A stretch of 64,000 nucleotides of DNA from Bacillus sp. AFS059628 (lineage in GTDB: Bacteria; Bacillota; Bacilli; Bacillales; Bacillaceae_G): contig NZ_NVEC01000028.1 in assembly GCF_002571225.1 (NCBI RefSeq), positions 1 to 64,000 of the forward strand, read 5' to 3'. This document shows, in pieces, positions 53,657-56,122 of the stretch. The notes beneath the pieces are model-generated. The model was not told where the DNA came from. It saw only the letters and a list, made by a program, of their open reading frames with translations, and did no database searches. The stretch's first letter is position 1, and every line of letters starts with the position of its first letter. The translations under genes and the position numbers were made by a program.

Positions 53657-54823
53657 TTGATAAAAAACCCCAAGGTTTTAATATTAACTGCACATTACGG
53701 TAACGGTCATGTGCAAGTAGCGAAAACATTAGAACAAACATTTCGCCAAAAAGGAATTAAAGATGTAATTGTATGCGATTTGTTCGGAGAATCACATCCA
53801 GTTATAACTGATATTACAAAATATTTATATTTAAAAAGTTATACAATAGGAAAAGAATTATACCGCTTGTTTTATTATGGTGTAGAAAAAATTTATGATA
53901 AAAAAATAGCATCTTGGTATGCGAATTTTGGAAGAAAACGTTTGAAATTACTTTTACAAGCAGAGAAACCGGATATTGTTATTAATACCTTTCCGATTAT
54001 AGCTGTACCAGAATTGAAAAAGCAAACAGGTATTTCAATTCCTGTGTATAACGTATTAACAGATTTTTGTGTGCACAAAATATGGATTCATCGGGAAGTA
54101 GATCGTTATTTTGTAGCAACTGATCATGTGAAAAAAGTTATGGTTGATATTGGTGTGCCTGCGGAGCAAATTGTTGAAACTGGAATTCCGATTCGTAATA
54201 GTTTTGAGTTAAAGATCAATCCAGACATTATATATAATAAATATCAGTTATGTAAGAATAAAAAGATTTTACTAATTGTAGCAGGTGCTCATGGGGTATT
54301 AGGGAGTGTAAAAGAACTATGCCAATCATTTATGTCAGTACCTGATTTACAAGTAGTTGTTGTTTGTGGGAAAAATGAAGCATTAAAACAGGATTTATTA
54401 GGATTACAGGAAAACAATCCTGATGCATTAAAAGTATTCGGTTATGTTGAAAATATTGATGAATTATTCCGTGTTACTTCTTGTATGATTACGAAGCCAG
54501 GCGGTATCACGCTAAGTGAAGCGGCAGCATTGCAAGTACCTGTCATTTTATATAAACCTGTTCCAGGGCAAGAAAATGAAAATGCGATGTACTTTGAAAG
54601 AAAAGGAGCGGCAGTTGTCATTCGTGATGATAGTGAGGTTTTTGCAAAGACAGAGGCGTTATTACAAGATGATATGAAGCTTCTTCAAATGAAAGAAGCG
54701 ATGAAAAGCATTTATCGTCCGGAGCCAGCTGGCCATATTGTGGATACAATTTTGGCAGAAAATCATGTAAAGCCGAATCATATACCTATTAAATCACCTG
54801 CTCTTGCACAATCATTTACTTAA
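53657..54823 (+). CDS. ugtP: Processive diacylglycerol beta-glucosyltransferase UgtP
   Basis: A 388-aa GT28-type enzyme (MGDG synthase family) with a TTG start after TAGGAGTGG. The acceptor motif is [16 protein letters not shown] near the N-terminus, and the UDP-sugar site is [38 protein letters not shown] is also conserved. It adds glucose from UDP-glucose to diacylglycerol, making glycolipids that anchor lipoteichoic acid. In B. subtilis it also couples cell size to nutrient state. It is a peripheral membrane protein and is monocistronic. Confidence 0.95.
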
Positions 54824-54827
54824 TATG

Positions 54828-54862
54828 AAACCCTCTTTGGAATATTTAAAGAGGGTTTTTTA
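54828..54862 (+). terminator. Terminator after ugtP
   Basis: AAACCCTCTTT-loop-AAAGAGGGTTT with T run. Confidence 0.88.
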
Positions 54863-54882: not shown

Positions 54883-55077
54883 TTATCCACATGGAGATTG
54901 CGCTTTCATTAAACAGTAAAGTCGGAATATTAACAACTATATCCACATTGTCCACAATTTTTAGAAAAATATCCACAATTCTAACATTTTCTATGCGTTA
55001 CAACATACAAACTTGTGAAGGGTTTGTGTAATTTATTCACAATTCTATCAATTATGTGGATAACGTTATCCACATAA
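54883..55077. promoter_or_regulatory. DnaA-box cluster (seven boxes in 195 bp)
   Basis: Exact TTATCCACA occurs at 54883-54891 (+), 55055-55063 (-) and 55066-55074 (+). TTATTCACA, a good TTATnCACA match, is at 55033-55041. One-mismatch boxes lie at 54939-54947, 54948-54956 and 54969-54977. The last two exact boxes form a perfect 26-bp palindrome. The region is AT-rich and noncoding. The density is far above chance, so DnaA binding is very likely. No dnaA or dnaN is near, so this is not the main origin as seen here. Confidence 0.85.
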
Positions 55078-55185: not shown

Positions 55186-55305
55186 TTAAATACTTTTCGA
55201 GCGATAACCCGCTGCGCGATCTGCTTTACGAAACTCTCGTTGGTAGAGAACTTCTTGTGTACTAGATAAAGCATTTTTTACTTTGTCACGTTTCTTTCTA
55301 TCCAT
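55186..55305 (-). CDS. yfhE: YfhE family small protein, 39 aa
   Basis: Translation gives MDRKKRDKVKNALSSTQEVL, then YQREFRKADRAAGYRSKSI, behind GAGGTGAT. The L-S-S/A-x-Q-E-V-L-Y-x-x-E-F-x-x-A-D-R-A-A-G-Y pattern is the YfhE family. The function is unknown. In B. subtilis yfhE stands next to yfhF and recX; here a GNAT gene, a tRNA-like element and an amidohydrolase lie between yfhE and yfhF. Confidence 0.8.
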   Translation of the reverse strand: MDRKKRDKVKNALSSTQEVLYQREFRKADRAAGYRSKSI

Positions 55306-55415: not shown

Positions 55416-55973
55416 TTATGCTTCTTTTAAGTGATGAGCATCTTGGAACGTTGTATCTCGCATTGTAGCAAGTGTATATTGATCTTTTGGAATTTCATAT
55501 AAGTTATATACTTCTTCATTCGCGTTAATTTCATCATAAACGGCTTTTCTTGTTTCGTTTGCTAGATTTACGTATTGTAATTTTTCTGCAGCTTTAATAG
55601 AACGAATATTTATTTTGCGAATACGCATAAAGATCGTTTCAATATCTAATTCATAGAAAAGTTCACTAAAAAATGAATCTTTTGCCAATTTATTATAACC
55701 TTTTCCATGATATGGTTTGCCAAGCCATGTTCCAAGGAATCCGGCTTTTTCTTGCACATCAAATAAAGTAATTGTTCCGATAGGGTTACCCCATTCATCT
55801 AAAATTGTGCGTGAAATTAATTCCCCACGCTCTTCAGCTTCAATCGTTTGTTTCGTTAAAAATAAATATTCCTCATAAGAATAAGCCTTTTGACGCACAA
55901 AAGGGAAGACAGCTGGATCCACCATTAACTCGTATAGAACGTGGCTGTCGTGTAAGTCGCGTTTTTTTAACAT
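55416..55973 (-). CDS. GNAT-family N-acetyltransferase (RimJ/RimL-like)
   Basis: A 185-aa protein of the GNAT fold. The acetyl-CoA segment is FLGTWLGKPYHGKGYNKLAKDSFFSELF, preceded by the strand GNPIGTITLFDV and followed by the MRIRKINIRSIKAAEKLQYV motif (N-x-x-S-x-x-x-x-E-K-L), typical of RimJ-type protein or amino-acid acetyltransferases. The acceptor is unknown. The ribosome site is GAGGAGG. It is absent from the matching B. subtilis yfhE-yfhF interval, so it is accessory. Confidence 0.85.
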   Translation of the reverse strand: MLKKRDLHDSHVLYELMVDPAVFPFVRQKAYSYEEYLFLTKQTIEAEERGELISRTILDEWGNPIGTITLFDVQEKAGFLGTWLGKPYHGKGYNKLAKDSFFSELFYELDIETIFMRIRKINIRSIKAAEKLQYVNLANETRKAVYDEINANEEVYNLYEIPKDQYTLATMRDTTFQDAHHLKEA

Positions 55974-56013: not shown

Positions 56014-56070
56014 ACCCCACCCTCGAAATTTTTATATCAATCTTTAAAAAATTTCGGGGTGGGAATCGAA
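56014..56070. repeat. Inverted repeat joining the GNAT terminator and the tRNA-like 3' end
   Basis: CCCACCC-T-CGAAATTTTT (56021-56038) faces AAAAATTTCGGGGTGGG. The right arm is also the T-arm and 3' acceptor strand of the tRNA-like element, so folding of one excludes the other. Confidence 0.6.
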
Positions 56071-56122
56071 CCCACTAGAACCAGTTTCTAACGCTGGTGG
56101 CGCACCATTTGCCTTCCCCATT
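56051..56122 (-). ncRNA. tRNA-like element (pseudo-tRNA)
   Basis: On the minus strand a D-arm GGC-AAATGGTGC-GCC, an anticodon-like arm ACCAG-CGTTAGAAA-CTGGT with a 9-base loop, a TCTA variable region and a canonical T-arm GTGGG-TTCGATT-CCCAC follow in tRNA order. The acceptor pairs only over about four of seven positions (AATGGGG with CCCGAAA), no CCA is encoded, and a T run follows the 3' strand. It is therefore no ordinary tRNA. A pseudo-tRNA (tRNA-Other) is reported from B. cereus, but its CCA anticodon is not obvious here, so identity is not claimed. Confidence 0.55.

Follow-up and report, generated by a model that had tools for sequence, protein, structure and literature searches.

What would a dense group of DnaA boxes, lying outside the replication origin and between the 3' ends of two convergent genes, do for a Bacillus cell? 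The question is raised by the gap between ugtP and yfhE in the 64-kb stretch of DNA analysed here (the window), where seven DnaA boxes occur within 192 bp (54883-55074). A first-pass annotation had read this array as a non-oriC cluster for DnaA titration or initiation control, and had seen in the neighbouring cell-size gene ugtP a link between growth and replication. The former remains the best reading, with the boxes conserved; the growth link is not supported.

The array and its surroundings

All seven boxes listed earlier were recovered, three being exact copies of TTATCCACA and four having one mismatch (Table 1), and two of the exact copies do face each other in a perfect palindrome of 26 bp. 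Offsets from box to box are 56, 9, 21, 64, 22 and 11 bp. At up to one mismatch, TTATCCACA has 36 matches in the 64-kb window; 100 shuffles averaged 21.77 (sd 4.92), and every one of them stayed below 36. With TTATNCACA at the same threshold, the densest 200 bp of the window hold seven boxes; the maximum in 300 first-order Markov sequences of 64 kb was five per 200 bp, reached in three of them, and the rest of the window has no 191-bp stretch with more than three boxes. The seven-box cluster is real and beyond chance, and it has what characterizes the non-oriC clusters of Bacillus, namely several DnaA boxes in about 300 bp, above the chance level.

The array sits between the 3' ends of convergent genes, with yfhE and a gene for a GNAT acetyltransferase approaching from the right; the latter has matches at E<=1e-50 in 306 of 397 genomes of the order. 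The ugtP-yfhE gap contains only short ORFs (75, 38 and 30 aa), none of which scored above a family cut-off in Pfam (best E 0.048), and no Rfam family reached its gathering score between 53300 and 56300. A tRNA-like Rfam match on the minus strand at 56056-56118 fell just under its gathering score (27 vs 29 bits). Transcription affects the activity of the E. coli loci DARS1, DARS2 and datA, according to a section heading of PMC5010248, so a sheltered site between convergent 3' ends would make sense.

Table 1. Features in and around the array (window coordinates)
Feature	Position	Strand	Basis or remark
ugtP (diglucosyl diacylglycerol synthase), left neighbour	53657..54823	+	NF010135, 740.7 bits vs cut-off 500
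Terminator-like hairpin of ugtP	54827..54859	+	terminator scan, fold
DnaA box 1, TTATCCACA, exact	54883..54891	+	box scan
AATATTAACA, just left of box 2	54926..54935	+	kept in all six ugtP-side arrays compared, window included
DnaA box 2, ATATCCACA, one mismatch	54939..54947	+	box scan
DnaA box 3, TTGTCCACA, one mismatch, directly abuts box 2	54948..54956	+	box scan
DnaA box 4, ATATCCACA, one mismatch	54969..54977	+	box scan
DnaA box 5, TTATTCACA, one mismatch	55033..55041	+	box scan
Perfect 26-bp palindrome formed by boxes 6 and 7	55052..55077		exact symmetry
DnaA box 6, TTATCCACA, exact, sole reversed box	55055..55063	-	box scan
DnaA box 7, TTATCCACA, exact	55066..55074	+	box scan
Terminator-like hairpin in the array-yfhE gap	55078..55107		fold; absent from the terminator scan's list
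yfhE, right neighbour, convergent with ugtP	55186..55305	-	PF14152
GNAT acetyltransferase gene, the more constant neighbour of the array	55416..55973	-	PF13302

Conservation of the boxes and their spacing

Conservation was assessed in relatives with 64-76% UgtP identity and outwards, as no UgtP more than 76% identical to that of the window was present in the genomes searched. UgtP was sought at E<=1e-130 and E<=1e-150, and genomes without a listed match may still carry it. In the family of G152, UgtP was found at E<=1e-150 in 6 of 19 genomes. Box clusters lie downstream of ugtP in all six, and in five of them the order, orientation and spacing of the boxes are kept despite diverged spacers. 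In these five (L135, L136, L137, L115 and L116) the offsets are 21-22 bp for boxes 3-4, 64-65 for boxes 4-5, 20-22 for boxes 5-6 and 11 for boxes 6-7 (10 in L135), the window having 21, 64, 22 and 11 bp; box 3 of L136 carries two mismatches, and box 2 of L115 and L116 is under the threshold. The exception is L117 (in G298), which keeps the offset of 22 for boxes 5-6 and has 21 for the last pair. Lack of conservation, named by the first-pass annotation as grounds for giving up its reading, is thus not what was found, as relatives show the boxes again in like orientation and spacing. In five of the six ugtP-side relatives the palindrome is lost while both boxes stay (2 of the 9 positions differ between boxes 6 and 7); two identical boxes 6 and 7 are kept in L117, with its wider spacing, and in two further arrays, L145 and L146.

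In an alignment of eight arrays, which takes in the pattern-found and 98% alike L145 and L146, 39 of the 45 invariant columns fall in boxes, though boxes make up only 53 of the 142 gap-free columns. None of 141 circular shifts reached 39 invariant box columns, the largest value being 37. Spacers are 31-51% identical for most pairs of arrays, and between families they are 31-39% identical, with boxes at 79-89%; compared with the other seven arrays, the window is identical in 35-48% of spacer columns and in 83-89% of box columns.

Is this architecture tied to ugtP? An exact pattern for boxes 5-7 gave one match each in 4 of the 19 genomes of G152's family and in 11 of 397 genomes of the order, eight of these 11 outside that family; the pattern misses G323 and G298, both of which have arrays, and its reversed control gave no match. 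Six of the eight extra-family matches (L145, L146 and L149-L152) adjoin the same GNAT gene, their other flank being occupied by a gene that we take, from its translation, to be transporter-like, amidase-like or acetyltransferase-like. L148 adjoins a presumably amidase-like gene, again judged by translation, with GNAT about 1.3 kb beyond, and L147 lies downstream of what we assume, on the same grounds, to be tsaD (gcp). Outside G152's family, therefore, the array beside GNAT has other genes in the place of ugtP. Because the left-hand neighbours differ elsewhere and the array lies between convergent 3' ends, and so is not a ugtP promoter, the proposed link to ugtP is unsupported, and its nearness to this cell-size gene looks incidental. 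The link was dropped, arrays of the same layout also adjoining tsaD/gcp.

The exact 20-mer of the palindrome was found in 108 stretches of genome contigs, none titled Bacillus, among them Exiguobacterium oriC and isolated pairs. The plasmid collection gave no match. In Exiguobacterium it lies near dnaA in 15 of 24 loci (L014, L015, L025 and L047 included among the 24); the remaining nine have 4-6 boxes at up to one mismatch in 520 bp, and no DnaA, DnaN or TsaD match. In the Streptomyces and cyanobacterial loci (such as L005, L084 and L024) the 20-mer is mostly an isolated pair, often within a longer symmetry, and may be the operator of another protein. A Calothrix plasmid record of 25.8 kb (L060 and L093) carries it three times, 199 bp apart, near one end and once near the start, possibly as repeats of a plasmid origin.

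Two gene neighbourhoods and their chromosomal place

R1, a model that describes boxes 2-7 by sequence alone, was trained on two GNAT-side arrays and six from the ugtP side. Run with stricter filters and at E<=1e-3, it found matches in 235 of 299 genomes of the order, three of the 235 having supplied training arrays; the other 64 gave no match. Among the matches listed, 90 were classified by tblastn, with TsaD as neighbour in 46, GNAT/YfhE in 35, DnaA/DnaN in none, and none of these in nine, of which four are no more than 0.7 kb from a contig end and another, in G201, is 9.5 kb from its GNAT gene. These 90 comprise 30 loci returned and 60 fetched nearly consecutively from the matches listed, with G165 and G298:C3 skipped (GNAT side, already in hand); G298:C14 was added by hand out of order, and leaving it out the TsaD side accounts for 45 of 89. 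Since R1 contains no TsaD-side array, the tsaD locus was found independently.

Loci chosen by gene agree with this picture. Of the 30 TsaD loci returned from 61 genomes, 26 have at least six boxes in 230 bp in the 1.5 kb downstream of the gene, and none has them in an equal 1.5-kb upstream control. On the GNAT side, 20 of 40 loci have such a group within 6 kb downstream and the other 20 have none, two loci being limited by contig ends; the upstream control, at 1.5 kb shorter than the downstream search, gave 0 of 40. This set consists of 38 loci, about every third of the matches from the 31st on, and the hand-picked G188 and G163, both positive, so that without them the count is 18 of 38. Only seven of the 30 GNAT loci most similar to that of the window have at least six boxes (in 220 bp) within 1.5 kb downstream. 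These two GNAT-side counts indicate that the copy there is often absent or moved.

Many arrays at both loci follow a common scheme, with boxes at about 0, 12, 54, 63, 85, 99 and 142, a reversed box at about 164 and often a last one at about 175. A 9-bp tandem is common to 24 of 26 TsaD-side and 19 of 20 GNAT-side arrays, and the best-shared offset in any of 500 randomisations was common to no more than 15 and 13 arrays, respectively, with the reservation that related genomes are not independent and shared offsets partly reflect descent. The window array has the common layout (a 9-bp tandem, then about 22, 22 to the reversed box, and 11), with a first spacer about 13-14 bp and a box 4-5 spacer about 8 bp longer than in the scheme. 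The ugtP-side relatives G152, G089, G323, G330 and G298 also carry 8-12 boxes at 20 to about 230 bp from where tsaD ends; G322 has its densest stretch of boxes 1.2 kb from this gene.

TsaD-side arrays could be placed relative to dnaA in 16 genomes and GNAT-side arrays in 10. Every one is on the dnaN side, the former at distances of 221-836 kb (median 286), the latter at 449-1140 kb (median 584). The placement is not independent evidence, because gene order near oriC is itself conserved. Only genomes with array and dnaA on the same contig were used; set aside were G161 (other contig), G267 (521 kb, neighbourhood unclassified), G222, G287, G065, the 417-kb match of G313, the GNAT-side array of G345, and G172, whose match at the far end of a dnaA-started contig may be oriC. 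The coordinates used for the TsaD-side arrays of G188, G152, G345 and G069, and for the GNAT-side array of G188, are accurate to about 1 kb. As the window has no DnaA or DnaN match and GNAT-side arrays are distant from dnaA in the 10 relatives, the array lies outside oriC. Identity with oriC itself was rejected, also by the absence of dnaA/dnaN neighbours among the 90 classified arrays and by the layout: Bacillales origins likewise have many DnaA boxes, but in mixed orientations and with other spacings in the nine dnaA loci examined.

It was shown previously that the eight strongest DnaA regions of B. subtilis in vitro are two at oriC, ywcI-vpr, gcp-ydiF, trmE-jag, ywlC-ywlB, yqeG-sda and yydA (PMC4447404). 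The gcp-ydiF region (region 4 in Table 1 of that paper), placed 628 kb from oriC on the dnaN side and flanked by the 3' ends of its two genes, contains 10 sites; its Kd for ATP-DnaA is 0.15 uM, and at 55 nM its recovery was 16-fold higher with the ATP form of DnaA than with the ADP form (PMC4447404). The tsaD-side site corresponds to this cluster. With the window array the cluster shares the grouping of boxes, the convergent 3' ends and, judging by relatives, the dnaN side, and TsaD-side arrays of the order match R1. The window array differs in lying at yfhE/GNAT and in having seven boxes, the B. subtilis cluster being known here from its published description. None of the 20 strongest B. subtilis regions in Table 1 of PMC4447404 is named as adjoining yfhE, and among titles and abstract beginnings of the open-licence papers retrieved none described either array as common across the order. 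The yfhE-side array thus seems to be a so far unreported case of the non-oriC clusters of Bacillus, sharing its layout with the gcp/tsaD side.

How the array may act

Our preferred explanation, to which we give a probability of about 0.68, is that this is a non-oriC array of the gcp/tsaD-side layout that cooperatively binds ATP-DnaA in a defined complex, leaves less DnaA for oriC and thereby holds initiation back. It builds on what was observed, i.e. the boxes, their recurring order, orientation and spacing, the two gene neighbourhoods and the position between convergent genes. DnaA binding, preference for ATP-DnaA and an effect on initiation would be expected here by analogy with B. subtilis, where deletion of six non-oriC clusters caused early initiation and restoring one partially corrected it (Okumura 2012, as cited in PMC5295017 and PMC13220808). 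Cooperative loading of ATP-DnaA would run along boxes 1-5, which all face one way, and the reversed box 6 together with box 7 would close the array. The array could then take ATP-DnaA from oriC, and more of it once the fork has doubled the site; lying a few hundred kb from oriC on the dnaN side, as in relatives, it would be copied soon after initiation and from then on hold more DnaA. Recurrence of order, direction and spacing at two neighbourhoods suggests that the array probably helps to set the timing of replication initiation.

Reviews see the B. subtilis clusters as holders of free DnaA (PMC5295017, PMC11019786, PMC13220808), and the array could be such a passive sink, whose boxes only bind and lower free DnaA, with number and affinity counting and spacing merely inherited. 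Box number does vary, from 6 to 13 among the classified arrays. Order, orientation and offsets, however, are kept over largely diverged spacers, and beyond randomisations at both loci, which is more constancy than a sink seems to need, although descent explains part of it; we regard a mere sink as rather unlikely. That geometry is kept over such spacers favours a defined complex over box number alone, with descent as a possible part of the cause, and we infer that geometry matters besides the number of boxes.

Other readings fare worse. The array might primarily serve another protein, form a hairpin in RNA or help to organise the chromosome, its DnaA boxes being secondary; the possible operator in Streptomyces and cyanobacteria and the folding of the array strand, far better than that of shuffles (z -6.4), would fit, but the folding resides largely in the terminator-like hairpins, Rfam matches are all sub-threshold, and five of the six ugtP-side relatives keep both boxes where the palindrome is broken, so that we consider this very unlikely. 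DnaA does act on transcription at some regions (PMC4447404), but control of ugtP, yfhE or the GNAT gene from this site is less likely still, as the array follows the 3' ends of both neighbours and is flanked by terminator-like hairpins, promoter-like sites are at chance level (17 vs 15.6), and the left neighbour varies between families. We put least trust in a DARS-like site converting ADP-DnaA to ATP-DnaA. The array resembles E. coli DARS1 in being non-coding, outside oriC and in possessing an inverted box pair, but its core (-> 13 bp <- 2 bp ->) differs from that of DARS1 (-> 5 bp <- 3 bp <-), and the DARS arrangement, with boxes I and II head-to-head and III facing as II, is not that of the window. 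In E. coli, datA likewise restrains initiation through DnaA boxes in non-coding DNA away from oriC (PMC5295017); it requires IHF, which B. subtilis is without (PMC13220808), and the E. coli stretch taken as datA has a box spacing unlike that of the window.

Returning to the defined ATP-DnaA complex, a bolder form of it may be put forward tentatively, as possible rather than probable. The yfhE- and tsaD-side arrays might be to Bacillales what the DnaA-control loci are to E. coli, namely a platform of fixed geometry on which a specific ATP-DnaA oligomer would change the activity of DnaA and not only its free amount, its place on the dnaN side making it a post-initiation timer.

Bacillus limits initiation without Hda, SeqA, IHF, datA or DARS. 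According to a 2026 review, regulators balancing DnaA-ADP and DnaA-ATP in B. subtilis are not yet known to exist (PMC13220808). Clusters known from one species become, with the present comparison, two arrays across many genomes of the order, and it is their shared geometry, not ugtP, that is the point of interest. An array whose geometry recurs at two neighbourhoods offers concrete DNA in which changes of spacing may separate a passive sink from a structured complex.
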